Shown here: positions 2,328 to 27,538 of the stretch, piece by piece | Numbering within the stretch: position 1 is the first letter of the stretch | How the letters are laid out: each line of letters opens with the position of its first letter | NCBI GenBank assembly: GCA_022425325.1 | Contig: JAKMFW010000019.1 | Location: 1-43,142 of the forward strand | DNA length: 43,142 nt | Source of the DNA: Acidimicrobiales bacterium | GTDB lineage: Bacteria; Actinomycetota; Acidimicrobiia; Acidimicrobiales; Aldehydirespiratoraceae | Reading direction: 5' to 3' | Position numbers and translations under genes: made by a program | The notes under the pieces: model-generated | The model's input: the letters and a program-made list of their open reading frames with translations, nothing else | What the model was told of the DNA's origin: nothing | The model's database searches: none

Positions 2328-3353
2328 ATGAAGGTCGACGGAGGTCTCGGACTCAGCCCCGACATCGACAAGATCGTCGCCAACGCCAAAGCCCAGGAAG
2401 CGGCCGGCTACGACGGCGTCTGGACAGCCGAGACGAGTCACGACCCGTTCCTGCCCTTGGTGCTCGCTGCCGAACACACCGAAACGCTCGAACTCGGCAC
2501 GTCGATCGCGGTCGCTTTCGCCCGAAACCCGATGCTGCTCGCGAACCTCGGCTGGGATCTTCAGGCGCTCAGCAAGGGCCGCTTCAACCTCGGCCTCGGC
2601 ACCCAGATCAAGCCACACATCACCAAGCGGTTCTCCATGGAATGGAGCAAGCCCGCAGCCCGGGCGAAAGAGATGATCTCGGCCATCAGCGCCATCTGGG
2701 ACACGTGGGAGCACGGCGAACCGCTGCAGTTCCGCGGCGAGTTCTACACCCACACCCTGATGACCCCGTTCTTCACGCCCGATAAGAGCGACCTTGGCGA
2801 CTTCGGCCGCCCGAACATCTGGCTCGCCGGCGTCGGTGAACTCATGACTCGCACCGCCGGCGAGGTCTGCGACGGCTTCATCTGCCACGGCTTCACCACC
2901 GAGAAGTACCTGCGTGAAGTCACCCTGCCGAACCTCGCCGAAGGCCGTGAACGAGCGGGCAAGTCGATGGACGACTTCATGATCTCCGGCCCGTTCTTCG
3001 TCGTGTCCGGCAACACCGAGCAGGAGTTCGACGCCGCAATGGCGGCCACCAAGCAACAGATCGCCTTCTACGGCTCGACCCCCGCCTACGCCAAGGTCTT
3101 CGAGTGCCACGGCTGGGAAGATCTCCAGCCCCGGCTCAACACCTTGTCAAAGCAGGGCGACTGGGTCGGCATGGGCGACCTGATCAACGACGAAGTGCTC
3201 GACGCCTTCGCCGTGGTCGGCGAACCGCACGAGATCGCGCCAGGGCTCAAGGCCCGGTACGGCGATGTCGTCGACCGCATCTCGTTCTACGCACCCGGCC
3301 AGGGCGACATCACGGCGTACCGCTCCGTGATGGACGAACTCAAAGCCGGCTGA
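2328..3353 (+). CDS. LLM-class F420-dependent oxidoreductase (TIGR03617-like)
   Basis: 341 residues forming the luciferase-like TIM barrel. Recognisable blocks are EAAGYDGVWTAETSHDPFLP near residues 25-44, LELGTSIAVAFARNPM (about 58-73), LSKGRFNLGLGTQIKPHI (about 85-102) and the C-terminal barrel segment with WLAGVGELMTRTAGEVCDGF. The H-D-P-F and GLGTQ pattern with FYT..TPFF matches the TIGR03617 group of probable F420-binding enzymes. The reaction is unknown; relatives oxidise or reduce alcohols, aldehydes or activated acids using coenzyme F420. No good Shine-Dalgarno or leaderless -10 is seen at this ATG. The following gene is convergent. Confidence 0.85.
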   Translation: MKVDGGLGLSPDIDKIVANAKAQEAAGYDGVWTAETSHDPFLPLVLAAEHTETLELGTSIAVAFARNPMLLANLGWDLQALSKGRFNLGLGTQIKPHITKRFSMEWSKPAARAKEMISAISAIWDTWEHGEPLQFRGEFYTHTLMTPFFTPDKSDLGDFGRPNIWLAGVGELMTRTAGEVCDGFICHGFTTEKYLREVTLPNLAEGRERAGKSMDDFMISGPFFVVSGNTEQEFDAAMAATKQQIAFYGSTPAYAKVFECHGWEDLQPRLNTLSKQGDWVGMGDLINDEVLDAFAVVGEPHEIAPGLKARYGDVVDRISFYAPGQGDITAYRSVMDELKAG

Positions 3354-6241: not shown

Positions 6242-7198
6242 TCAGCCCTCGTTCACCATCGGCACGACGACTTCGCTGAACGCCGCAAGGCTGTCGGCGT
6301 ACTCCTGCGCGTCGCGGGCCCGGAACTTGAGGTGCACCACATTGCAGCCGAGCTCACGAGCGGCCCGGATGTCCTCGGCGAGCCCTTCGGGACCGCCCTG
6401 CAGCCAGTGCATCCCGATGCCCTCCGGCGGGTCACCGAGGATGTACCCCCACGGGGTCATGTAGCCGACATCGAGCGGAACATCCTCGGGACGCCCCGCC
6501 GCGACCGCCGCCTCTCGCATGATCCCGATGGCCTCGGGGTACTGCTCCTTCGGCAGACCCATCGGGATGTAGCCGTCGCCGAGACGGCCCGTGCGCTTCC
6601 ACGCCGCCTTGCCCGCCCCGCCGATCCAGATCGGCAGCTCGCTCTGGGGCTGCGGCGACACACCGACATCGGCGTAGGAGAAGAACTCGCCCTCATGGCT
6701 GACATAGGTGTCGGTGAACGCACCCCGCACGGCCTCAAGCGTCTCGTCGAGCCGCTTCCCTCGAGTGCGGAAGTCGACACCGAGGGCATCGAACTCCGCC
6801 TCCACGTGCCCGGCACCGACCCCCAGAATCGCCCGACCACCCGAGAGATGATCGAGGGTGCCGAACGCCTTCGCCGTCTGCAGCGGATGCCGATACGCCG
6901 CGATCCACACGACGGATAACAGATGCGTGTGCTGCGTGTGAGCTGCCAGGTACGACAGGGTCGAGATCGTGTCGTACCACGTCGTGGTCATCTTCGACGC
7001 GTAGTCGTTGTCGGGGATGGCGACGTGGTCGCACACGCCGACGAAGTCGTAGCCGTGCTGGTCGGCAGCCTTGGTGATCGCGACGAGATCGTCGACGGTC
7101 GCTGCGTCCTCCCACTCGTCGACGAGGGTGCGGGTCAAGGTCTGGATCGGGAGCTGGATTCCGTACGTCCACTCCCCCGGCTTTGTCAACGCACTCAC
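6242..7198 (-). CDS. LLM-class F420-dependent oxidoreductase (TIGR03619-like)
   Basis: 318-residue luciferase-like enzyme. Diagnostic blocks are AADQHGYDFVGVCDHVAIP, LSYLAAHTQHTHLLSVVWI, LSGGRAILGVGAGHVEAEFDALGV, RGKRLDETL and PIWIGGAGKAAWKRTGRLGDG, close to the TIGR03619 group. Coenzyme F420 is the likely cofactor; the substrate is unknown. The start is GTG 7196-7198, preceded at good spacing by AGGAGG, so it is translated from a leader or as the second gene of an operon. The Lrp/AsnC gene lies 43 bp upstream on the same strand, so the two are likely co-transcribed and the regulator may control it. Confidence 0.87.
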   Translation of the reverse strand: MSALTKPGEWTYGIQLPIQTLTRTLVDEWEDAATVDDLVAITKAADQHGYDFVGVCDHVAIPDNDYASKMTTTWYDTISTLSYLAAHTQHTHLLSVVWIAAYRHPLQTAKAFGTLDHLSGGRAILGVGAGHVEAEFDALGVDFRTRGKRLDETLEAVRGAFTDTYVSHEGEFFSYADVGVSPQPQSELPIWIGGAGKAAWKRTGRLGDGYIPMGLPKEQYPEAIGIMREAAVAAGRPEDVPLDVGYMTPWGYILGDPPEGIGMHWLQGGPEGLAEDIRAARELGCNVVHLKFRARDAQEYADSLAAFSEVVVPMVNEG

Positions 7199-8170: not shown

Positions 8171-9487
8171 GTGACGAATCCCGTACTTCCCGAAACCGAT
8201 CACCACATCGTCGTCTCAGCCGACGCCCACTGCGGCGCCGGCGTGCGTGACTACAAGCAGTACCTCGAGGCGAAATACCACGCCGACTTCGACGCCTGGG
8301 CCGACGACATCGAAGCCGGTGTCGCCCGCCAAAAGGCGATGTACAAGGACATGGAACGCTCGCCGCTCGAGGTCGGCGTCGATGGCGACCCCGACGAGTT
8401 CGGTGACCGCAACTGGTCCAGTGAGCGCCGCCTCCGTGAGCAGGAACAAGACGGCGTCGTCGCCACCGTGCTGTTCCCGAACACCCAGCCGCCCTTCGCC
8501 CCGCCGCCCGCCAGCAGCTTCGAGGCACCGGCCTACGCCGACAACTTCGAGTACCGCTGGGCCGGGCTGCGGGCCCACAACCGCTGGCTCGCCGACTTCG
8601 TGAGCGAGGCCCCCACCCGCCGAGCCGGAGTCTTCCAGATCTTCCTCGGCGACGTCGACGGCTCGGTCGCCGAGATCGAATGGGCCGCCGAGCAGGGCCT
8701 CACCGGCGGCGTACTGGTGCCGGGCGCACCACCCGACTCACCGTTCGAACCGCTCTACTCGGCCAGCTACGAGCCCATCTGGGCCGCAGCCGCCGCCCAC
8801 GGCATGCCGCTCAACCACCACGCCGGCGGTGCGTCACCGAACTTCGGCAACCACTTCCCCGCCTCGCTCGCCATGTTCATGCTCGAGGTCCAGTGGTGGA
8901 CCCAGCGAGCGCTGTGGCACCTGATGTTCTCCGGCGTGTTCGAACGCCACCCCGAGCTCGACTACGTCATCACCGAAACCGGCACCGCCTGGGTGCCCGA
9001 CACGCTCGCGAAGCTCGACAGCTTCCACCACCGCATGAAGTACAGCCGGTACGGCTCCGAGTCGATCTTCGGCGGCCAGGCCGTCGCCGAGATGTCGTTG
9101 ACACCGAGCGAATACTTCGACCGCCAGTGCCACATCGGCGCTTCGTTCCTGCGGCCGTCCGAGACCGACGTCGCCAGATCGGTCGGCACCCACAAGGTGA
9201 TGTGGGGCAGCGACTACCCCCACATCGAAGGCAGCCACCCCCACACGAAGGAACACCTGCGTCTCACCTTCGCCAACTACAAAGTGGAGGAGGCGACACA
9301 GATGCTCACCACCAATGCGGCAAAGGTCTACGGCTTCGATCTCGAGGCGCTCCTCCCACTCGCCGAACAGTTCTGCCCCACCAAGGCGCAGGTCGCCAAC
9401 CCGATCGACTACTCGGAGATCCCGGAGCGGGCCAAGGGCTGCCCGGGCATGAACCCACTCAACCAACGTGAGGAGGTCGTCGCATGA
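8171..9487 (+). CDS. Amidohydrolase-2 family metal-dependent hydrolase
   Basis: 438 residues, longer than the two paralogs at 3381-5335. The N-terminus IVVSADAHCGAGV has the D-x-H variant of the metal-binding motif. Further conserved pieces are GMPLNHHAGGASPNFGNHFP, ELDYVITETGTAWVP and C-terminal VMWGSDYPHIEGSHPHTKEH, with the catalytic-type Asp in GSDYP. It belongs to the ACMSD/amidohydrolase-2 superfamily, whose members decarboxylate or hydrolyse ring-derived acids; this substrate is unknown. The GTG start at 8171 has GACCAT 6 nt before it, a weaker form of the leaderless pattern. It overlaps the SDR gene by 4 nt (ATGA), so the two are translated together and probably act on one route. Confidence 0.87.
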   Translation: MTNPVLPETDHHIVVSADAHCGAGVRDYKQYLEAKYHADFDAWADDIEAGVARQKAMYKDMERSPLEVGVDGDPDEFGDRNWSSERRLREQEQDGVVATVLFPNTQPPFAPPPASSFEAPAYADNFEYRWAGLRAHNRWLADFVSEAPTRRAGVFQIFLGDVDGSVAEIEWAAEQGLTGGVLVPGAPPDSPFEPLYSASYEPIWAAAAAHGMPLNHHAGGASPNFGNHFPASLAMFMLEVQWWTQRALWHLMFSGVFERHPELDYVITETGTAWVPDTLAKLDSFHHRMKYSRYGSESIFGGQAVAEMSLTPSEYFDRQCHIGASFLRPSETDVARSVGTHKVMWGSDYPHIEGSHPHTKEHLRLTFANYKVEEATQMLTTNAAKVYGFDLEALLPLAEQFCPTKAQVANPIDYSEIPERAKGCPGMNPLNQREEVVA

Positions 9488-10407
9488 GCGAACCGACCCA
9501 GGACCAGACCACCGTCCTTCAGGACATCGTCATCAGCGACTCGGTCGCCGTCGTCACCGGCGGCGCATCGGGCATCGGCAAGGGCATCGTCGGTGCACTG
9601 CTGCGCCATGGCGCAAAGGTCGTCATCGCCGACATCGAACAGTCGGCGATCGACGAGACCGTCGCGGAGATGAGCGCACACGGCGACGTCACCGGCATCC
9701 GCACCGACATCACCGACGAGGCCTCGGTCAAGGCCCTCGCCGACGCCGTCTACGAACGCCATGGCAAGGTCAACCTCCTCTACAACAACGCTGGCGTCAC
9801 CTCCGGCGGCGGTGGCAAGCCGTGGCAGCAAGAACCCAACGACTGGCGCTGGTGCTTCGGCGTGAACGTCTTCGGCACAGCCATCTGCACCTCGGAATTC
9901 GTGCCCCGCATGATCGAGGGCGGCCATCCCGGCCAGGTCGTCAACACATCATCGGGCGACGGCGGCTTCGCCCCGGTGCCCACGGCATCGGTCTACGCCG
10001 CGTCGAAAGCGGCCGTCAGCTGCTTCACCGAGGCCCTGCACCACAACCTCGAATCCGAGGGCACCCAGCTGCGAGCATCGGTCTTCTACCCTGCCGGCGG
10101 CCTCCAGCGCACGGGCCTCTTCACCGCCCAACGCAACCGTCCCGAACACCTTCAGCGGGTCGGTGAGGGCACCGGACGCAAGAGCATGTCGTTCGACGAG
10201 ATGAAGGCCCTCCTTGAGCGGTCGGGTCGCGACGTGAAGGAAGCCAACCTCGACGCCCAGGGCGACATGGTCGTCAACAACACCGTCGCCCGCACCTACA
10301 TCATCACCAACGACCTGCGCGACACCGTCGATCTGCTGCACCGCCGAGCCGACGCCATCGGCCGGCTCGAGGTGCCACCGCACCACGGCATGCCCAAGAT
10401 GACCTGA
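9484..10407 (+). CDS. Short-chain dehydrogenase/reductase
   Basis: 307-residue classical-type SDR. The Rossmann glycine motif is VAVVTGGASGIGKGIVGALL (about residues 20-39), the NNAG motif is YNNAGVTSGGGG, and the active site is Ser in NTSSGDGG with YAASKAAV. It is longer than the usual 250 residues because of a C-terminal extension ending in LEVPPHHGMPKM. It should oxidise or reduce a secondary alcohol or ketone with NAD(P). The gene overlaps the upstream amidohydrolase by 4 nt, and a strong GAGGAGG lies before the ATG, so it is the second gene of a coupled pair. The substrate is unknown. Confidence 0.9.
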   Translation: MSEPTQDQTTVLQDIVISDSVAVVTGGASGIGKGIVGALLRHGAKVVIADIEQSAIDETVAEMSAHGDVTGIRTDITDEASVKALADAVYERHGKVNLLYNNAGVTSGGGGKPWQQEPNDWRWCFGVNVFGTAICTSEFVPRMIEGGHPGQVVNTSSGDGGFAPVPTASVYAASKAAVSCFTEALHHNLESEGTQLRASVFYPAGGLQRTGLFTAQRNRPEHLQRVGEGTGRKSMSFDEMKALLERSGRDVKEANLDAQGDMVVNNTVARTYIITNDLRDTVDLLHRRADAIGRLEVPPHHGMPKMT

Positions 10408-12511: not shown

Positions 12512-14716
12512 GTGAGCGACATCGAGGACTCGACAAGCGCGTCGTCGCTCACCGCCGCAGTGCTCGACGAAGAGGCCGCCCGCCAGGCGAGTCAGGCCGA
12601 ACGGTCAGCCGACGTCATCTTCGCCGACGACTTGCTGCCCGGAGTCGGTAGCGAAGAGATGCCGCTCAAGGAAGGGCTCCGCAAAGGCGGCTTCTTCACC
12701 TTCGTCGTGTTGTTGCTGCTCAACTCCCTCGACGAACTCGAGCAGGCCGCGATCAATATCCTCGGCCCCGACATCGCCGAGACCTTCGGCGTCTCCGACG
12801 GCACGATCACCTTCATCTCGACGGCATCGGTGGCGTTCTTCGTGCTCGGCGCCGGCCCCATGGGCTGGCTCGCCGACCGGATCCGTCGAGGCCCGATCGT
12901 CGGCGTCGCCAGCCTCGCCTTCGGGTTCTTCGTGTTCCTGTCCGGCGCCGCAGTCAACGCCTTCATGTTGTTCGTCGCCCGCTTCTTCGCCGGCATCTCC
13001 AAGGCCAACACGATCACCGTCCACTCGACCCTGCTGGCCGACACCTATCCGATCGCCACCCGCGGCCGCATGTACGCCACCAACGCCGGCGTCGGCCGCA
13101 TCTTCGGCGCCGCCTCACCGATCCTCGTCGGCGGCGTCGCCGCCATCGCCGGCGGCGTCGCTGGCTGGCGCTGGGCCTACTTCATCCTCGGCATCCCCGT
13201 CGCCATCCTCGGCATCCTCGCCTTCTTCATCCCCGAACCCGAACGCGGCCAATGGGAGAAGCAGGACGTTCTCGGCACCGGCCTCGAACGCAAGGAAGAG
13301 GCCCCGATCTCCGTCGAGGCCGCCTTCGCCCGCATCTGGCGAATCGACACGATCCGCTACATGACCCTCGCAATGGCGGCGATCGGCTTCGCGCTCTTCC
13401 CCGCCCAATCGATTCAGAGCTTCTTCCTCGAAGAAGAATTCGGTCTCGACGCACTCGAACGCGGCCTCGCCGTCGCACCGGCCGGCGTGCTGCTGATCCT
13501 CTTCTTGCCCTGGGTCGGCCGCAAGTTCGACCAGACCTTCCGCAAGAACCCCGACGGCGCACTCCGCATCCTCGGCCTGCTGCTTCTCCCCGCCACCCTG
13601 CTGGTACCCATCCAGTACTTCATGCCCAACGTGTGGCTGTTCGCCGCCGTCGGCGCCCTCAACACGACCTTCCTCGGCGCCGCGTTCGCGATGATCCAGC
13701 CATCGATCCAGAGCGTGGTGCCGTATCGCCTGCGAGGAATGGGCACGGCGATCATCACCTTCTTCATGTTCGCCATCGGCGGCATCGGCGGCGGCATGCT
13801 CTCCGCCTTCCTGCAGGACGCGATCGGCGAACGACAGACGATCATCATCCTCACGATGCTCTTCATGCCGGTGGGCGGCTTCTTCGTCATCCGCGGTTCG
13901 GGCCGTCTGCGTCGCGACCTCAGCCTCGTCGTCGCCGAACTCCAGGAGGAGCAGGAAGAAGAGCGTCGCCAAGCCGCCGACCCCGACGAGATCCCGGCAA
14001 TCCAGGTCAACCAGATCGACTTCAGCTACGGCCAGGTCCAAGTGCTCTTCGACGTCTCGTTCGAGGTGAAGAAGGGCGAGTCGCTCGCCCTGCTCGGCAC
14101 CAACGGCGCCGGCAAATCGACCATCCTCAAGGTCATCACCGGGCTCGGCACGCCCGAACGGGGCGTCGTCCGACTCAACGGGCAGACCATCACATTCGCC
14201 ACCCCAGAGATCCGCGGTGGGCTCGGCATCGAGATGCTCCCCGGCGGACAGGGCACCTGGCAGGCCATGACCGTCGCCGACAACCTCGAGATGGGCGCCT
14301 TCCGGTACCGGCGCGACCCAGCCGACGTGAAGCGTCGCATCGCCCGGGTCAAGGAGCTGTACCCGTCGCTCAACGACCACCCCACCAAGCGGGCTGGTGA
14401 TCTGTCGGGCGGTCAGCAGCAGATGCTCGCCCTCGCCCGGGTGATGCTGCACGAACCCGACGTGTTGATCATCGACGAACTCAGCCTCGGCCTCGCACCG
14501 ACCGTCGTGCAGGATTTGCTGAGCCACATCGACACCCTGCGCGCCGCGGGACAGACGATGATCATCGTCGAGCAGTCACTCAACGTCGCACTCGCGATCG
14601 CCGACCGGGCCGTCTTCCTCGAGAAGGGCCAGGTCCGGTTCGAGGGCGACGCCCAGGAACTCGCCGAGCGTGACGACCTCGCCCGAGCCGTGTTCCTCGG
14701 AAAGGAGGGTGGCTGA
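12512..14716 (+). CDS. MFS permease fused to LivF-type ABC ATPase
   Basis: A single 734-residue frame. Residues 1-50 are a polar N-terminus. About 55-465 is a complete MFS permease, with MGWLADRIRRGPIVGVAS as loop motif A and VARFFAGISKANTITVHSTL in the fourth-helix area. A Glu-rich linker (AELQEEQEEERRQAADPDE) follows. From about 494 comes a LivF-like ABC ATPase with Walker A GTNGAGKST (529-537), signature LSGGQQQ (631-637) and Walker B VLIIDE with catalytic Glu 656. All ATPase motifs are intact. Reading is continuous and codon use is even, so this is a true fusion. Its stop overlaps the next start by 1 nt (TGATG), coupling it to the LivHMG fusion. A joint importer with that protein is inferred; the role of the MFS half is unknown. 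Confidence 0.92.
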   Translation: MSDIEDSTSASSLTAAVLDEEAARQASQAERSADVIFADDLLPGVGSEEMPLKEGLRKGGFFTFVVLLLLNSLDELEQAAINILGPDIAETFGVSDGTITFISTASVAFFVLGAGPMGWLADRIRRGPIVGVASLAFGFFVFLSGAAVNAFMLFVARFFAGISKANTITVHSTLLADTYPIATRGRMYATNAGVGRIFGAASPILVGGVAAIAGGVAGWRWAYFILGIPVAILGILAFFIPEPERGQWEKQDVLGTGLERKEEAPISVEAAFARIWRIDTIRYMTLAMAAIGFALFPAQSIQSFFLEEEFGLDALERGLAVAPAGVLLILFLPWVGRKFDQTFRKNPDGALRILGLLLLPATLLVPIQYFMPNVWLFAAVGALNTTFLGAAFAMIQPSIQSVVPYRLRGMGTAIITFFMFAIGGIGGGMLSAFLQDAIGERQTIIILTMLFMPVGGFFVIRGSGRLRRDLSLVVAELQEEQEEERRQAADPDEIPAIQVNQIDFSYGQVQVLFDVSFEVKKGESLALLGTNGAGKSTILKVITGLGTPERGVVRLNGQTITFATPEIRGGLGIEMLPGGQGTWQAMTVADNLEMGAFRYRRDPADVKRRIARVKELYPSLNDHPTKRAGDLSGGQQQMLALARVMLHEPDVLIIDELSLGLAPTVVQDLLSHIDTLRAAGQTMIIVEQSLNVALAIADRAVFLEKGQVRFEGDAQELAERDDLARAVFLGKEGG

Positions 14717-17595
14717 TGTCGAACCAACTGCTCGCCGTCCTCGGGCTCTTCGAAGGGCCGGCCCCGACCCGCAATGTCTGGTTCGACGGCGTCGTCTTCG
14801 GCCTCGTCATCGGCCTGCTGGCGATGGGGGTCATCCTCATCTACCGGTCGACGAAGGTCATCAACTTCGCCGTCGGCAACATGGGCCTACCCGGCGCCAC
14901 CCTCTTCGCACTGCTCGTCATCAACTGGGGATGGCCGTTCTGGCTCGCCCTTATCACCTGCCTGCTCATGGGGGCACTGATCGGCGCCGTCATCGACCTG
15001 ACAGTCATCTGGCGACTCTTCGACCGCCCGCGCGTCATGTTGCTGGTCGCCACCGTCGGCCTCAGCCAGCTCATGCTGGGCGCCAACCTCGCCCTGCCCG
15101 ACGTCGACACCGACGCCGCCCAGATCCGCTTCCCCGCTGCGATCGGGCGGTCGTGGGACGACATCGTCGGCCTCACCCCCACCGGCCCCCAGGTCCAGAT
15201 CCTGATCGCCGTGCCGGCGGTGGCCCTCGCCCTCGCCTACTGGCTCAACCGCACGACCTTCGGCAAGGCCGTCACCGCATCAGCCGACAACCCGAGCCTG
15301 TCCCGCCTCGCCGGCATCAGCCCCCGCACCGTCTCGACCATCGTGTGGACGGTCGGCGGCTTCCTCGCCACGTTCTCGATGATCCTGCTGAGCAGCGGCG
15401 GACCCAGCACCGGTGTCAGCAACCTCGGCATCACCACCCTCAACCTGGCGCTCGTCGCCGCCGTGCTCGGCGGGATGCGCTCGTTCACCCGGGCGATGGT
15501 CGGCGGTGTCGTGATCGGCATCCTCACCAACATCTTGCAGTGGTACTACTCCCGCGAGGTCGGCCTCAACAGCTTCATCTTCTTCGTCGCCGTCCTGATC
15601 GCCATCTATTGGCAACGCCGACCGGCCGGCAATGAAAGTTCGGCCTTCACCCCGAAGGTCCGGCCGATCCCTGCCCACCTGCGCGAGATCTGGTGGATCC
15701 GCAACATGGCGAAGCTCACGGTCGGCGCCCTGTTGGTGATCGCGTTCGTCCTGACCTGGTACCACGAGCGACTGCTGTACGTGGACTTCCCGCCGTCGCG
15801 CTTCTTCCTCTACTCGACGATCATCGTCTTCGCCCTCGTGGCGTCGTCGGTCACCGTCATCACCGGATGGTCGGGCCAGTTGTCGCTCGCCCAGATGGCG
15901 TACGCCGGCATCGGCGGCCTGTTGGCCGTCCACCTCCACAACGGCTTCTCGATGGACGTCGGGTTCGGCTCGACGCGGCTGCTGAAATTCGAACTGGTCG
16001 GCGTCACCCAGGGCTGGGCGGTCATCGTCGCCGCCTTCGTCACCGCCGGCATCGCCGTGCTCACCGGCCTCACCGCGCTTCGGGTTCGAGGCCTGATGCT
16101 GGCCGTCGTCACGTTCGCCTTCGCCAACGCCGCCCTCGGCTACCTCTACAACCGTCCGTTCTTCAACGGTGGCCAGCGCACGCCGTCGGTTGAACGCGGC
16201 ACCTTCTTCGGGGTCGACATGTTCGACCAGCGCAACTTCTTCTACTTCACGGCAGGCAGTGCGCTCATCGTCCTGCTGATCCTCAACCATCTACGCGGCT
16301 CGGCGATCGGCCGTCGGATCTACGCCGTTCGCGACAACCCCGACACCGCCGCCGCCTACACGGTCAGCCCCACCCGCACGAAGCTGCTGGCGTTCGGGCT
16401 CGCCGGCTGGGTCGCCGGCCTCGCCGGTGGCCTCTTCGCCAACCTGCTGCCCGCCGTCCGCTACGGCGACGCCCATTTCCTGATCGGCGAATCGCTCGAG
16501 GTCGTCGGTATCGCCGTGATCGGCGGACTCGGCTCGATCACCGGCGCCATCCTCGGTGCGCTGTGGGTGATCGGTCTGCCGGCCTTCTTCCCCGACAACG
16601 AACTCGTCCCGCAGTTCACCTCGTCGGTCGGCCTGCTCATCATGTTGATGTACTTCCCGGGCGGGTTCATCCAGATCGCCAACAGTGCCCGCAACGGCAT
16701 CGTGTCGTTCGCCGAACGCCGCATGGGCCTCGAGGCCACACCGGCATCGAGCACGGCCGCACCGGCATCGATCAGCCGCCGCAGCAGCGACGAGCCGCTC
16801 CCCGACATCACCCTCAAGGTCACGGACGTCAAGGTCACCTTCGGTGGCAACGTGGCGGTCGCCGGCGTCGACCTCGAGGTGCGTCGCGATGAGATCGTCG
16901 GCCTGATCGGCACCAACGGCGCCGGCAAGTCCACCTTGATGAACGCCATCGGCGGCTACGTCTCGTCGACCGGCACGGTCGAGCTCCTCGGCCGTGACAT
17001 CAGTTCGAAGAGCCCCTCGCAGCGCGCCCCGCTCGGGCTCGGCCGCACGTTCCAGGCGGCCACCCTCTTCCCGGAGCTGACCGTTCGCGAGACGATCCAG
17101 GTCGCGCTGGAGGCCCGCAGACGGTCATCGTTCGTGCGGTCGGCGCTCTTCCTCGATGGCCGAGCCGAACGCCGTCAACGAGCCGAGGCCGACGAGTTGA
17201 TCTCGTTCCTCGGCCTGGGCCGCTACGCCGACTCGTTCATCAGTGATCTGTCGACCGGTACCCGCCGCATCGTCGAGCTCGCCGGCCTGTTGGCGGTCGA
17301 CGCCAAGGTTCTATGTCTCGACGAGCCGACGGCAGGCGTCGCCCAGCGAGAAACCGAGGCATTCGGCCCACTGATCCAGGAGATCCGGCGCGAGCTCGGA
17401 GCATCCATGTTGATCATCGAGCACGACATGCCGCTGATCATGAGCATCTCGGACCGGGTGTACTGCCTCGAGTCCGGCGCAGTGATCGCGTCGGGCGAAC
17501 CGACCGAGGTTCGCAACAACCCAGCCGTGGTGGCCAGCTATCTGGGCACCGACGTCCGGGCAATCGAGCGCAGCGACAGCGGCACGACCTCCTAG
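14716..17595 (+). CDS. LivH-LivM-LivG fusion: BCAA-type ABC permeases plus ATPase
   Basis: A 959-residue single frame joining three proteins that are usually separate. Residues 1-300 are LivH-like, with STKVINFAVGNMGLPGA near 50. About 345-660 is LivM-like, with VITGWSGQLSLAQMAYAGIG near 384 and YAVRDNPDTAAAYTVSPTR. About 700-945 is a LivG-like ATPase with Walker A GTNGAGKST (732-740), FPELTVRETIQVALEA and Walker B LCLDEPTAGV with catalytic Glu 870. Its signature is LSTGTRR (845-851) instead of LSGGQ, a form I recall in some actinobacterial LivG-like proteins. With the upstream MFS-LivF protein it completes two permeases and two ATPases. No periplasmic binding protein lies nearby. Substrates of this class include branched-chain amino acids, urea, amides and aromatic acids. 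Confidence 0.93.
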   Translation: MSNQLLAVLGLFEGPAPTRNVWFDGVVFGLVIGLLAMGVILIYRSTKVINFAVGNMGLPGATLFALLVINWGWPFWLALITCLLMGALIGAVIDLTVIWRLFDRPRVMLLVATVGLSQLMLGANLALPDVDTDAAQIRFPAAIGRSWDDIVGLTPTGPQVQILIAVPAVALALAYWLNRTTFGKAVTASADNPSLSRLAGISPRTVSTIVWTVGGFLATFSMILLSSGGPSTGVSNLGITTLNLALVAAVLGGMRSFTRAMVGGVVIGILTNILQWYYSREVGLNSFIFFVAVLIAIYWQRRPAGNESSAFTPKVRPIPAHLREIWWIRNMAKLTVGALLVIAFVLTWYHERLLYVDFPPSRFFLYSTIIVFALVASSVTVITGWSGQLSLAQMAYAGIGGLLAVHLHNGFSMDVGFGSTRLLKFELVGVTQGWAVIVAAFVTAGIAVLTGLTALRVRGLMLAVVTFAFANAALGYLYNRPFFNGGQRTPSVERGTFFGVDMFDQRNFFYFTAGSALIVLLILNHLRGSAIGRRIYAVRDNPDTAAAYTVSPTRTKLLAFGLAGWVAGLAGGLFANLLPAVRYGDAHFLIGESLEVVGIAVIGGLGSITGAILGALWVIGLPAFFPDNELVPQFTSSVGLLIMLMYFPGGFIQIANSARNGIVSFAERRMGLEATPASSTAAPASISRRSSDEPLPDITLKVTDVKVTFGGNVAVAGVDLEVRRDEIVGLIGTNGAGKSTLMNAIGGYVSSTGTVELLGRDISSKSPSQRAPLGLGRTFQAATLFPELTVRETIQVALEARRRSSFVRSALFLDGRAERRQRAEADELISFLGLGRYADSFISDLSTGTRRIVELAGLLAVDAKVLCLDEPTAGVAQRETEAFGPLIQEIRRELGASMLIIEHDMPLIMSISDRVYCLESGAVIASGEPTEVRNNPAVVASYLGTDVRAIERSDSGTTS

Positions 17596-17624: not shown

Positions 17625-18710
17625 TCAGTCGCTCGCTTGGTCGTCGGTGACCGGGGCCGGATCGTGCGTCTCGATGGTGACGGGCGCAGGCGGCGGGTCG
17701 AGCGGATGATCGCCCTGATGGCGGAACCATACGGTCTGCTGGGGGAACGGGATCTCGATGCCGGCCTCATCCAGCGCTTCCTTGACCCGCAGACGAATCT
17801 CACGCTCGACCGACCACTGCATCGAAGGCTCGGTCTTCACCGCAAGCCGGATCGCGACGCCGCTGGCGCCGAGGCTCTGGATGCCCCACACCTCGGGACG
17901 CTCCATCAGTTCGTCGCCGCCCCATTCGGGGTCCTCCCACAAGCCGTCGGCGACCCGCTGGATGATGCCCTGGGCGTAGCGGAGATCGACGTCGTAGGCG
18001 ACCTCCACATCGATCACGGCCCGGGACCACAGCTGGCTGTAGTTGCCGACCCGACTGATCTCACCGTTGGGGATGTGCCACACGGTGCCGTGGACATCAC
18101 GCAGAGTCGTGGACCGAAGCGACACCTCTTCGACCGTGCCGGTGGCGGGCCCGATATCGATGACGTCGCCCACGCCGTACTGATCCTCGATCAACATGAA
18201 CAGTCCGGACAGGAAGTCCTTCACGACCGACTGAGCGCCGAAGCCAAGCGCCAGACCACCGATACCGGCGCCGGCGATCAGTGGTGCGAGATCGATGTTG
18301 AGCTGCCCGAGCACCAGCAGGGTGGCAACACCCCAGACCGCTGCGCCGACGACGCTGCGGAGAACAAGACCGATGGTCTCGGCGCGGGCCTCAGCACGCT
18401 TTCGGGCGGTCTCCTCGATGAGGTGTCGACCAGGACCGCGCTCACGCAACTGGCTGAGTGCGTTGCTGTCGGACGGATTGGCGATCGCCCGGGTGAAGCG
18501 GATCACAGTTCGCTGCAACAGCCGCGTGACGAGCCAGGCCGCCAGCAGGATGAGCGCGATGCGGATCGGTCGGTCCAGGATCCACTCCGCAGCGACCGCC
18601 CAGAACTCGCTGTCGGTCCACTCGAAGACCCGCTTACAGGTGAACGTGGGTTCGAGACCGCACGCATCGGTCAACGGATCGGTCGCTTCTTGGCCCAACA
18701 CGCTTGTCAT
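17625..18710 (-). CDS. MscS-family small-conductance mechanosensitive channel
   Basis: 361 residues. An N-terminal periplasmic-like segment with two Cys leads to a membrane helix (about 46-66, RIALILLAAWLVTRLL). A second helix lies near 115-135, and the pore helix shows IAGAGIGGLALGFGAQSVVK, the Gly/Ala-rich MscS pore signature. FLSGLFMLIEDQYGVGDVI and GTVEEVSLRSTTLRDVHG follow, opening the cytoplasmic beta domain. The C-terminus is Pro/Asp-rich. It should open on membrane tension to release solutes during osmotic downshock. ATG 18710 has TACCGT 7 nt before it. It is divergent from the molybdate operon and its 3' end faces the LivHMG gene. Confidence 0.93.
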   Translation of the reverse strand: MTSVLGQEATDPLTDACGLEPTFTCKRVFEWTDSEFWAVAAEWILDRPIRIALILLAAWLVTRLLQRTVIRFTRAIANPSDSNALSQLRERGPGRHLIEETARKRAEARAETIGLVLRSVVGAAVWGVATLLVLGQLNIDLAPLIAGAGIGGLALGFGAQSVVKDFLSGLFMLIEDQYGVGDVIDIGPATGTVEEVSLRSTTLRDVHGTVWHIPNGEISRVGNYSQLWSRAVIDVEVAYDVDLRYAQGIIQRVADGLWEDPEWGGDELMERPEVWGIQSLGASGVAIRLAVKTEPSMQWSVEREIRLRVKEALDEAGIEIPFPQQTVWFRHQGDHPLDPPPAPVTIETHDPAPVTDDQASD

Positions 18711-18804: not shown

Positions 18805-19189
18805 GTTTCGCATTGGAAAAGCAGCGCAACTGCTGGGAGTCAGCCCTGACACGGTCCGACGCTGGGCCGATCAGGGCCGCGTCGCAACCGTGCGCACCGA
18901 CGGCGGCCAGCGCGAGATCGAAGGACCCGAACTCGCCCGCCTCGCACTCGAACTCGGCGACCAGCCACTCGACGACGCCGACTCGGTGTCGGCGCGCAAC
19001 CGCTTTCCCGGACTCGTCACCCGAGTGATCCGCGACACGGTGATGGCCCAGGTCGAGATCCAGGCCGGACCCCACCGGGTGGTGTCGCTCATCTCGGCCG
19101 AAGCGGTCGATGCGCTCGGGCTCGAACCAGGAGTCCCAGCCGTCGCCTCCATCAAATCGACGAACGTCGTCATCGAACGGGCCACGTGA
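18797..19189 (+). CDS. HTH-TOBE molybdate-responsive regulator/binding protein
   Basis: 130 residues. Residues 1-50 are a MerR/excisionase-like helix-turn-helix (RFRIGKAAQLLGVSPDTVRR, then GQREIEGPELARLALEL). Residues 65-128 are a single TOBE/Mop-like domain (ARNRFPGLVTRVIRDTVMAQ, then VVSLISAEAVDALGL and ASIKSTNVVIERAT), the fold that binds molybdate or tungstate. I start at ATG 18797; a longer frame from 18704 adds residues unlike the family. Its stop overlaps the modA GTG (GTGA), making it the first gene of the operon. It probably senses Mo and represses or activates its own operon. It may also supply the TOBE domain missing from ModC (inference). Confidence 0.88.
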   Translation: MHRFRIGKAAQLLGVSPDTVRRWADQGRVATVRTDGGQREIEGPELARLALELGDQPLDDADSVSARNRFPGLVTRVIRDTVMAQVEIQAGPHRVVSLISAEAVDALGLEPGVPAVASIKSTNVVIERAT

Positions 19190-19917
19190 GCGGACGGATC
19201 ATGGCGCTGACCGGCGCCGTTGCGGCAGCCGTCGTCGCGCTCGCCGTCCTCGGTGTGAGGGGTGACGCCGACACGGCGCTCGTCCTCGCGCCATCGTCGC
19301 TCGCACCGTTCGAAGCCGAACTCGACGCGGCGCTGACCGAGTCGGGCGTCGGCCCGGTCGAGTGGGTGTTCGCCGGAAGCCAATCGCTCGTCGCCCAACT
19401 GATCGACGGCGCACCGGCCGACGTGTTGATCACCGCCGATGCCGCCACCTTCGCCCGGGCGAACGCCGCCGGCGTGACCTGGGACGACGGTCGCGACCTC
19501 GTCGCCAACCGCCTCGCCCTGGCGGTGGCGCCCGGGAATCCCGGAGGTGTCACGTCGCTCGATGATCTGGGCCGCAGTGGCCTGCTCGTCGGTGTCTGCG
19601 CCCCCGAGGTCCCATGCGGCCGCCTGGCCGTGACAGCGACAGACGGCCGAGTCACGATCGACGCCGATACCGAGGAGACGAACGTCCGGGCGTTGACCAC
19701 GAAGCTCGCGGCGGGCGAGCTCGATGTCGGGCTCGTGTACCGCACCGATGCCCGAGCCGCGGGTCTGGAGACCATCGCCGACGACACGCTCCGCCAGGCG
19801 ACCACCGCCTACCGGGGCAGCGCGAACCCCGACGGTGCCGCAGTGCTTGCGTCGTTCCGCAACGGCGCAGCCCATGCCGTGCTCCTCGAGGCCGGCTTCC
19901 TCGACGTGACGACATGA
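19186..19917 (+). CDS. modA: Molybdate ABC transporter substrate-binding protein
   Basis: 243 residues. A hydrophobic N-terminal segment (about 4-24, IMALTGAVAAAVVALAVLGV) is a signal peptide or anchor. There is no Cys after it, so it is not a lipoprotein, unlike many ModA of Gram-positive bacteria. The mature part has the ModA pattern: VLAPSSLAPFEAELDAAL, VFAGSQSLVAQLIDGAPADV, LITADAATFARANAAG, VGVCAPEVPCGRLA and AGELDVGLVYRTDA. It should capture molybdate or tungstate outside the membrane. The GTG start overlaps the regulator stop, and the stop overlaps modB (ATGA). Confidence 0.92.
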   Translation: MSGRIMALTGAVAAAVVALAVLGVRGDADTALVLAPSSLAPFEAELDAALTESGVGPVEWVFAGSQSLVAQLIDGAPADVLITADAATFARANAAGVTWDDGRDLVANRLALAVAPGNPGGVTSLDDLGRSGLLVGVCAPEVPCGRLAVTATDGRVTIDADTEETNVRALTTKLAAGELDVGLVYRTDARAAGLETIADDTLRQATTAYRGSANPDGAAVLASFRNGAAHAVLLEAGFLDVTT

Positions 19918-20705
19918 AGCCGCCGACCGCACGCCCGTCAGCACTCCTGCTGATTCCTGCCGGCGCCGGCCTCCTCCTCGTGGCCGTTCCGGTGATCGGC
20001 CTACTGCAACGAGCGCCGTGGTCGTCGCTGCTCGACCGTCTCACGAGCGACACCGTGCTCGACGCGATCCAGGTCTCGGTCACGGTCAGCGTCGCGGCGG
20101 CGATCATCGCCACCGTGCTCGGCCTGCCGCTCGCCTGGCTGCTCGCCCGGCACGACGGTCGGCTGGCGACACTCGTCCGGGCGGCCGTGCTGGTGCCGAT
20201 GGTGTTACCTCCGGTCGTCGGCGGCACCGCCTTGCTGTTCGCGCTCGGGCGACGCGGCCTCGTCGGCCAGTGGCTCGACTCCTGGTTCGGCATCTCGCTG
20301 CCGTTCACCACCGCCGGGGCAGTCGTCGCCGCCAGCTTCGTCGCGCTGCCGTTCTTCGTCACGACGGTCGAGGCAGCACTTCGGCAGGCTGGCACCGACC
20401 TCGAGGAAGCAGCGGCCGTCACCGGCGCCGGGCCGCTCACCGCCTTCGTCACCGTGACCGTGCCCGCCTCACGCGATGCGATCCTCGCCGGGCTCGCGCT
20501 GGCGTGGGCCCGGGCCCTCGGCGAGTTCGGCGCAACCATCACCTTCGCCGGCAACCTCGCCGGCCGCACTCGCACGCTGCCGCTCGAGATCTTCTTGGCG
20601 CTCGAATCGGACCCGGAATCCGCTGTCGCCGTGAGCGTGCTCCTCCTCTCGGTCAGCTTCGCCGTCCTGATCGTCCTGCGGGGACGGTGGTTCTCTCGTG
20701 GCTGA
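19914..20705 (+). CDS. modB: Molybdate ABC transporter permease
   Basis: 263 residues with about five to six membrane helices. The permease contact loop reads LALAWARALGEFGATITFAG, the EAA-type motif that ends in G-E-F-G-A in ModB/CysT proteins. Other typical blocks are LGLPLAWLLARHDGRL and LPPVVGGTALLFALGRRGLV. I take ATG 19914, which overlaps the modA stop; the frame opens earlier but only antisense or out of frame to modA. Its end overlaps modC by 8 nt, so modA, modB and modC are translationally coupled. Confidence 0.93.
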   Translation: MKPPTARPSALLLIPAGAGLLLVAVPVIGLLQRAPWSSLLDRLTSDTVLDAIQVSVTVSVAAAIIATVLGLPLAWLLARHDGRLATLVRAAVLVPMVLPPVVGGTALLFALGRRGLVGQWLDSWFGISLPFTTAGAVVAASFVALPFFVTTVEAALRQAGTDLEEAAAVTGAGPLTAFVTVTVPASRDAILAGLALAWARALGEFGATITFAGNLAGRTRTLPLEIFLALESDPESAVAVSVLLLSVSFAVLIVLRGRWFSRG

Positions 20706-21333
20706 GCAGCTGTCCATCTCCGGCCGCTTCCGACGCGGCGACGTCGATTTCGACCTCGACCTGTCACTCCCCGCCGGCCGCATCGCCGTCGTCGGCCCCA
20801 ACGGCAGCGGCAAGTCGAGTCTGCTGCGCCTGATCGCCGGACTCGAAGCGCTCGATGACGGCCACCTGACCCTCGACGGCATGCTCCTCGATCACCGCCC
20901 CGAGATCTTCGTTCCGCCGCACGAGCGACCGATCGCGATGTCGTTCCAGGAACCGCGTCTCTTCGCCCACCTGCGGGTGATCGACAATGTCGCCTATCCG
21001 CTCCGACGCGCCGGCCGACCCCTCGACGAGGCGCGTGTTCAACTCGAGCGGGTCGGGGCTGGCGCCCTCGCCGACCTTCGACCCACTCGGTTGTCGGGCG
21101 GACAGGCGCAACGGGTCGCCCTCGCCCGCGCCCTCGCCGTCGACGCCCCGACCCTGCTGCTCGACGAGCCGCTCGCTGCGATCGACGAAGCCGGTCGCGC
21201 CGAGGTCGGCTCCCTTCTCCGATCGCTCGACACCCGCCGCATCGTCTGGGTCACCCACGATCCGGCCGACGCCGGCGACGCCGACGTCGTCGTGTCGATC
21301 CGAGACGGTGTCGTGCGCCAGACTGCAACCTAG
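20698..21333 (+). CDS. modC: Molybdate ABC transporter ATPase, short form without TOBE
   Basis: 211 residues. Walker A is GPNGSGKSS (33-41), the Q-loop is MSFQEPRLFAHLRVIDNVAY, the signature is LSGGQAQRVALARALA and Walker B is LLLDEPLAAID, with H-loop VWVTHDPADA. Typical ModC is around 350 residues and carries a C-terminal TOBE domain; here the protein stops right after the ATPase core. The only TOBE domain in the operon is on the first gene's product. The GTG start overlaps modB by 8 nt. It should energise molybdate uptake with ModA and ModB. Confidence 0.92.
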   Translation: MAEQLSISGRFRRGDVDFDLDLSLPAGRIAVVGPNGSGKSSLLRLIAGLEALDDGHLTLDGMLLDHRPEIFVPPHERPIAMSFQEPRLFAHLRVIDNVAYPLRRAGRPLDEARVQLERVGAGALADLRPTRLSGGQAQRVALARALAVDAPTLLLDEPLAAIDEAGRAEVGSLLRSLDTRRIVWVTHDPADAGDADVVVSIRDGVVRQTAT

Positions 21334-26485: not shown

Positions 26486-27538
26486 TCAGACCTCCTCGGC
26501 GAGCTCGGACGCTCCGGTGATCGACGCAGCGATCTCCAGCGCCTCGAGATCCTCGGTGCGGAGGATCACCCCGGTCAACCCGTCGGGCACGACCTCGTCC
26601 CAACGGTTGGCGATCCTCGACGCCGGACCGAAGAGGGCACCGGCATCGATGTAGTCGTCTGGCACGGCGGCGATCGCCTCGTCTTTGCGGCCCGCGAGCC
26701 AGAGTTCCTGAATCCGAGCTGCGGCCTCGGGCCACCCGCGCCGGGCCATCGCATCACGGTGGAAGTTGTTGTCCTCGCTGCCCATGCCCCCCACATACAT
26801 GCCAGTGAGTGGCTTCTTTGCGTCGATCGCCGCCTGGACGTCGTCGGTGACCTCGATGGTGAGGTTGCCCATGATCTCGAAGTTGTCGGGCCGGCCGCCG
26901 CGCCGAGCCCAACCCTGTTCGAGGTTGGCGCCATGGATGGACCACCCATCGGAGCCGTACCCCATCGGCAACCAGCCGTCGGCGACCTCGGCTGCAAGGG
27001 CGGTGTTCATCGGTCCACCCGACGCGATCCAGATCTCGACCCGGCCGGCCGGGTGCAGGATCGACTTCAGCGCCTTGCCCTCGCCGATCGCGCCCGGACC
27101 ATCGAACGGCAACGAGAGTTCAGCCCCTCGGTGTTCGACCGGCGCTTCCCGATCGACGACCTGCCGCATGATCGAGACATAGTCACGCAGGCGCCGATTG
27201 GGGCTCCCCCACGGCTGGCCGTACCACCCCTCGACGATCTGTGGGCCGCTCACCCCGAGGCCGATGATCACACGATCACCGCCGGCGAGCTGGTCGATCG
27301 TTAGTGCGTGCATCGCCGTCGCCGCCGGCGTGCGGGCCGACACCTGGACGACACCCGTGGCCAGCTTGATCTGGGAGGTGTGCGCGGCAAAGAAGGCGAG
27401 CGGGCTCAACGCATCGGCGCCATAGGCCTCTGCGGTCCACACGGAGTGGAAGCCGAGACGATCGGCGGCCGTGACGAGATCAAGCGGCACATCGAGGTGC
27501 TTCGCCCGATAGAGCTCCAAGCCGAGTCCGAGTTTCAC
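26486..27538 (-). CDS. LLM-class F420-dependent oxidoreductase (TIGR03559-like)
   Basis: 350 residues. MKLGLGLELYRAKHLDVPLD, FHSVWTAEAYGADALSPLAF, SQIKLATGVVQVSARTPAAT, LAGGDRVIIGLGVSGPQIVE and WYGQPWGSPNRRLRDYVSIM fit the F420-binding LLM group TIGR03559. The last 100 residues carry AVPDDYIDAGALFGPASRI, common in this branch. The GTG start at 27538 has TAGCAT 7 nt before it, so the transcript should be leaderless, and the enoyl-CoA hydratase follows 1 nt after the stop. The pair suggests one oxidation route on a CoA thioester, but the substrate is unknown. Confidence 0.88.
   Translation of the reverse strand: MKLGLGLELYRAKHLDVPLDLVTAADRLGFHSVWTAEAYGADALSPLAFFAAHTSQIKLATGVVQVSARTPAATAMHALTIDQLAGGDRVIIGLGVSGPQIVEGWYGQPWGSPNRRLRDYVSIMRQVVDREAPVEHRGAELSLPFDGPGAIGEGKALKSILHPAGRVEIWIASGGPMNTALAAEVADGWLPMGYGSDGWSIHGANLEQGWARRGGRPDNFEIMGNLTIEVTDDVQAAIDAKKPLTGMYVGGMGSEDNNFHRDAMARRGWPEAAARIQELWLAGRKDEAIAAVPDDYIDAGALFGPASRIANRWDEVVPDGLTGVILRTEDLEALEIAASITGASELAEEV

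Follow-up and report, generated by a model that had tools for sequence, protein, structure and literature searches.

Transport by ABC systems (primary) and by MFS carriers (secondary) is commonly assigned to separate mechanistic classes. The ABC importers of the HAAT/Liv class (LivJ-HMGF, UrtABCDE) have two BPD_transp_2 transmembrane domains, LivF-type and LivG-type ATPases and a BCA_ABC_TP_C tail, all of which are present in the gene pair described here, and most relatives of the pair have an adjoining gene for a protein resembling a substrate-binding protein (SBP); the pair differs from these importers in that both permeases and LivG are on one chain, LivF is fused to an MFS carrier, and the SBPs are very divergent. 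The MFS half resembles the Spinster family (human Spns1, SPNS2) in fold and sequence, but has a C-terminal ABC ATPase and LivHMG as its gene partner. Azospirillum records named 'branched-chain amino acid ABC transporter ATP-binding protein/permease' also combine permease and ATPase in one chain, to judge by the record name only, but the name includes no MFS. An ABC system and an MFS carrier that serve one pathway, for cholate metabolites (review PMC8399759), are CamABCD and CamM of Rhodococcus jostii RHA1, which, unlike the modules of the present pair, are encoded at separate loci (ro04888-ro04885 and ro05792). Importers of the Liv class, fusions of permease and ATPase, and carriers of the Spinster family are already known; the apparently new part is the junction of MFS and LivF, with LivHMG as partner. 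The preliminary description of this DNA knew of no experimental account of such a pair, and full-text searches of an open-access library found none; the consulted portions of PMC8399759, PMC7593942, PMC6498646, PMC4810484, PMC3924187, PMC7997004, PMC11004387 and PMC7689651 contain no such fusion.

Anatomy of the two chains

The pair is located on the forward strand of a stretch of 43,142 nucleotides (the window) that belongs to a draft genome (G000) of 2.6 Mb in 102 contigs, 95% complete. Both open reading frames were found as first reported: the MFS-LivF fusion (12512..14716, 734 amino acids), delimited by the ORF list, Pfam, NCBIfam and an AlphaFold model, and the LivH-LivM-LivG fusion (14716..17595, 959 amino acids), delimited by the ORF list, Pfam, NCBIfam, alignment and a predicted model. 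They are linked by a Shine-Dalgarno-like GGAGG and a TGATG overlap (14700..14718, forward strand), in which the TGA of the MFS-LivF gene (14714-14716) gives its A to the ATG of the LivHMG gene, a 1-nt overlap, and the ATG is 7 nt past the GGAGG, a putative ribosome-binding site.

MFS-LivF consists of an N-terminal segment (residues 1-55), a Spinster-like MFS domain (approximately 57-465), a helix (466-489) and the LivF ATPase (497-730); LivHMG consists of LivH (approximately 18-305), LivM (approximately 322-665) and LivG (approximately 697-947) with a BCA_ABC_TP_C tail (923-946). Pfam recognizes MFS_1 (73-427) and ABC_tran (513-656) in the first chain, and in the second BPD_transp_2 (PF02653, E 1e-52) in two stretches that correspond to the transmembrane domains LivH and LivM of a HAAT/Liv importer, followed by ABC_tran and BCA_ABC_TP_C. 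The top NCBIfam names for the two ATPases are UrtE/LivF and LivG/UrtD, with scores under the curated equivalog cut-offs, and the junction of MFS and LivF is spanned by none of the best 25 NCBIfam models for each chain (of 215 and 193). The ATPases are of the LivF and LivG types with intact motifs: the residues of Walker A, the signature and Walker B are invariant in alignments of 32 and 28 sequences. The domain assignments of Pfam and NCBIfam agree with the earlier account, in which two chains make up a complete Liv-class importer core and one of them is joined to a whole MFS carrier.

In the AlphaFold model of MFS-LivF (mean pLDDT 80.3), helix 466-489 leads from a full MFS fold into LivF; the C-terminus of an MFS carrier is expected in the cytosol. 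For the predicted model of LivHMG (mean pLDDT 79.8), the VIA-align comparison covers the LivG part only. A Foldseek list was taken up by ABC proteins, from which nothing further was gained.

Conservation and distribution of the pair

Loci were gathered with MFS-LivF as the query, so the result that was tested is the presence of LivH, LivM and LivG beside it. The 101 loci examined comprise the window, its paralog, 20 from a sample of the phylum, 78 from a scan of named genomes and one on a plasmid; five were dropped, one as a duplicate (L040, of L075) and four at contig ends (L092, L097, L100, L117). In 94 of the 96 assessable loci, two adjacent chains contain all five modules, and in the other two (L119, L138) the contig stops before LivG. 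Layout A, MFS-LivF plus LivHMG as in the window, accounts for 85 loci and layout B, LivHM plus MFS-LivF-LivG, for nine; LivG switches chain between them and the MFS remains on LivF. The genes of layout A overlap by 1 nt in 33 chain pairs and by 4 nt in 21 (54 of 80, with the duplicate L040 counted). Recurrence of the pair in approximately 100 loci is far beyond chance. The preliminary description had named assembly error as one finding that would overturn it; an artefact or broken gene is ruled out, because near-identical frames are present on other MAG contigs (L069, 97% identical; L111, 99%) and distant relatives keep the two-chain arrangement. The fusion is genuine, and many actinobacteria have kept it.

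Twelve further loci (L192-L203) were read in addition to the 101. Two of these (L201, L203) have layout B, and one (L202:5235-10602, forward strand) has LivHM, MFS-LivF and LivG as three chains, possibly an intermediate between layouts A and B. Another (L200) has LivHM and MFS-LivF, with no LivG detected. LivH, LivM, LivF and LivG are on a single chain without MFS in L192:6411-10262 (reverse strand, 1283 amino acids) and L194:5154-8900 (forward strand, 1248 amino acids), and L193:6648-8867 (forward strand) has a different N-terminal part of approximately 200 amino acids ahead of LivF-LivG, adjoining LivHM and an SBP-like gene; this part is hydrophobic by eye and apparently membrane-spanning, with no match to the MFS profile. 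The MFS half thus appears to be exchangeable or dispensable in relatives. The modules are mainly on separate chains without MFS in L197-L199 and, in an irregular form, in L195; a contig end truncates L196. In L192 and L194 the single polypeptide is a whole ABC importer core, and an SBP-like gene adjoins it. At L095 and L098, two pairs point away from each other and enclose two different SBP-like genes.

In a draw of 396 genomes across the phylum, a match that spans MFS and LivF was counted by hand in 19 (23 pass the E-value, four of them with matches to LivF only), of which six are outside the window's class. Within the class, 67 of 247 sampled genomes have such a match, also by hand count (77 pass, ten of them with matches that cover LivF by itself or together with an incomplete MFS). 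Among named records, Acidimicrobiaceae MAGs come closest, with 97-99% identity in MFS-LivF. On a megaplasmid of Embleya, LivHMG and an SBP-like gene accompany a copy with 56% identity; among the 26 plasmid records matched by a layout-B chain (E 1e-60), none covers 80% of the chain. The genome of the window encodes a second pair, 48% and 47% identical to that in the window, and an unfused Liv-class system (C19).

The MFS half and its tether to LivF

The predicted MFS half is a 12-helix fold nearest to human Spns1 (VIA-align Z 39.9, rmsd 2.7, 409 residues aligned), followed by Spns2 (Z 39.2, 393 residues) and MCT1 (Z 37.5), so that the next MFS folds after Spinster score only about 2 Z units lower; by sequence, Spns1 is also the first match (phmmer E 1e-10). 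An Asp/Arg pair resembling motif A is conserved (D122, 0.90; R126, 0.99; weighted conservation). The conserved aspartate D74 of the first transmembrane helix was considered as the Spinster acidic site and dropped, because phmmer aligns E77, not D74, with the Asp of Spns1. The N-terminal segment bears a DDLLPGVG motif, matched as a regular expression in 65 of 92 layout-A MFS-LivF frames (a count that includes a duplicate, tandem copies and truncated frames, with a near variant in some unmatched rows) and in none of nine layout-B frames; it is possibly a docking element.

In six comparisons, with domain bounds transferred via alignment and LivHMG chains longer in two of them, the dN/dS of the MFS half is 0.038-0.108, near that of LivF (0.030-0.074), with 0.038-0.276 for LivH, 0.032-0.241 for LivM and 0.045-0.164 for LivG. 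The MFS value is under that of LivH in five comparisons, of LivM in four and of LivG in five; in one comparison the MFS half is evolving faster than LivH. The MFS half is under strong purifying selection, and these values rule out a degenerating passenger. Such selection speaks against an inert passenger and is compatible with a structural role; together with the Spinster-like fold, it indicates that the MFS half is probably a working carrier.

Among 28 non-redundant loci of the 65 with layout A, MFS distances correlate with SBP distances (rho 0.67), with a partial correlation of 0.39 after controlling for LivF and LivG, and the same control leaves LivH at 0.45 and LivM at 0.41 (Mantel p 0.0005 each); MFS divergence follows that of LivM strongly (rho 0.88). 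Co-divergence of the MFS with SBP and LivM is consistent with a part that acts on the same substrate, and it may come partly from membrane and secreted proteins outpacing the ATPases, since fast-evolving parts correlate anyway.

The account we favour, at slightly better than even confidence, is a Liv-class (HAAT) importer fed by an SBP, to which an active MFS carrier for the same or a related catabolic substrate is tethered via LivF. The two genes would encode one membrane complex, in which LivH and LivM would form the permease, LivF and LivG the ATPase pair as in other Liv-class importers, and LivF would carry a complete Spinster-like MFS through the cytosolic helix. The MFS would be an active carrier beside the importer, moving the same compound or a related one, either as a second route in or for release of a metabolite or counter-solute.

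Less probable, though the strongest of the alternatives, is a structural or regulatory module that anchors LivF, stabilizes the complex or senses substrate and moves no solute. LivF is the partner of the MFS in every locus found, as a fused-protein query would favour; L193 with its other N-terminal part and L192 and L194 without MFS are consistent with an anchor, as is the finding that the strongest co-divergence of the MFS is with LivM. An anchor needs no intact carrier, however, and what is kept under strong purifying selection is a full MFS fold with the D122/R126 pair. It is doubtful, and a step less probable again, that the pair is a dual-energy transporter, in which ATP hydrolysis and docking of the SBP on LivHM would gate or drive the MFS through the helix that joins it to LivF; uptake through LivHM would then be obligatorily coupled to the passage of another compound (a counter-solute or metabolite) through the MFS, which would otherwise run on an ion gradient. 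More improbable still is a neutral fusion that joined two independent carriers for co-expression only, the MFS being a free carrier of the same pathway: the unfused Liv-class system (C19) of the same genome is in keeping with it, as is the separation of ABC and MFS carriers in the CamABCD/CamM pathway (PMC8399759), but the junction is unchanged over deep divergence and in both layouts, and searches with the fused protein, which favour fusions, showed no relative in which MFS and LivF are separate.

Substrate-binding proteins, neighbouring genes and substrate

The preliminary description found no binding protein in the window, which holds for the Liv type; a molybdate-type SBP (PF13531, SBP_bac_11) is encoded at 19186-19917 (forward strand). 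An SBP-like gene, defined as one scoring more than 60 bits against profiles built from the neighbours of 20 of the loci, is present within 3.5 kb in 75 of the 96 assessable loci: at no more than 600 bases from a chain in 60 and at 0.6-3.5 kb in 15. One other locus has such a gene at 4.3 kb, and none was seen in the remaining 20, seven of which are contig-cut within 600 bases of MFS-LivF. These SBPs are weakly similar to leucine-binding proteins (Peripla_BP_6), and Pfam PF13458 recognizes two of eight scanned. The 20 loci without such a gene include the two subclades closest to the window, 13 distinct loci in all (the window, L069-L072, L075-L080, L111 and L116, with L079 and L116 cut by a contig end), none of which has an SBP of this family in the stretch covered. 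In related loci (L073, L074, L120 and most of L081-L093), an SBP-like gene is found at a distance of 0.9-3.2 kb.

The least probable reading is the earlier suggestion that the MFS half takes the place of the binding protein in supplying the ABC part, at least in the nearest relatives of the window: the absence of an SBP from those 13 loci, the dN/dS of the MFS in the comparison of the window with L070 (0.108, versus 0.276 for LivH and 0.241 for LivM) and the position of the sole full-length SBP of one genome (G396) beside its other pair are in its favour, but the related loci just listed have an SBP-like gene at short distance, at least one full-length family member is encoded somewhere in all ten tested genomes whose locus has no SBP nearby, and the 75 loci with a nearby SBP-like gene leave the idea of an SBP stand-in unsupported across the family.

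According to the favoured account of an SBP-fed importer with a tethered carrier, the ABC part would be fed by a divergent lipoprotein-like SBP, adjoining in most relatives and in trans for the window. The genome of the window (G000) encodes two pairs and two full-length SBPs of this family (C30, C97). C30 adjoins the second pair; C97 (G000:C97) is an orphan, with no such transporter over the initial 10 kb of its contig, and its relatives in the genomes of L070, L078, L076 and L072 likewise have no such pair in the surrounding 13-15 kb. The genome of L078 (G403), which has a pair of the window type, contains a single MFS-LivF gene and a single full-length SBP, and the two are not linked. The C97 SBP is a good candidate for the in-trans partner of the window pair. 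Its role remains that of a candidate because G396, the MFS-LivF of which is 99% identical to that of the window, encodes two pairs and only a single full-length SBP, located next to the second pair, which leaves the other pair without one nearby (the C97 SBP is absent from this draft genome), and because neither of the two of the several SBPs of G398 that were placed in the tree, a FastTree phylogeny with several long branches, is an ortholog of C97. The C97 group also takes in SBPs that adjoin other pairs (L102, L106). SBPs of this family outnumber pairs in three genomes (G401, G400, G405); there are many more SBPs than transporter pairs in G401, the genome of L080, which suggests that several share one transporter there.

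Upstream of the pair in the window, in a catabolic context outside the transporter, are an amidohydrolase (8171-9487, forward strand) and an SDR (9484-10407, forward strand). Downstream by 1.6-3.7 kb are the molybdate-type SBP and an ABC ATPase (20698-21333, forward strand); with the intervening stretch of permease length, 19186-21333 is apparently a separate ModABC-like system, and an SBP_bac_11 protein recurs near the pair in nine loci, the window included. An MscS-type mechanosensitive channel (17625-18710, reverse strand) is convergent with the pair, and its family is found near the pair in 14 loci including the window. The window also has three luciferase-like monooxygenase genes (PF00296) at 2328-3353, 6242-7198 and 26486-27538.

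Families that recur near pairs are SDRs, amidohydrolases, luciferase-like monooxygenases, sulfatase, acyl-CoA ligases and P450, as well as enoyl-CoA hydratases (by eye; by Pfam in the window); the enzyme neighbours vary, and the counts carry no genomic background and come from many closely related loci. A family-3 glycosidase adjoins the pair in one subclade and in the Embleya copy. The enzyme neighbours, the Spinster-like carrier and the very divergent SBPs together suggest that the substrates are organic acids or lipid-like catabolic compounds, not specifically branched-chain amino acids; similarity to the Spinster fold gives no substrate. The compound that the complex takes up would be a catabolic one, probably not a branched-chain amino acid but an organic acid that is bulky or hydrophobic.

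A label of 'MFS transporter' or 'ABC transporter' would overlook half of such a protein. A stable and widespread fusion, on one chain, of a full MFS carrier with the ATPase of an ABC importer is a natural system for studying whether an MFS carrier can respond to ATP hydrolysis.
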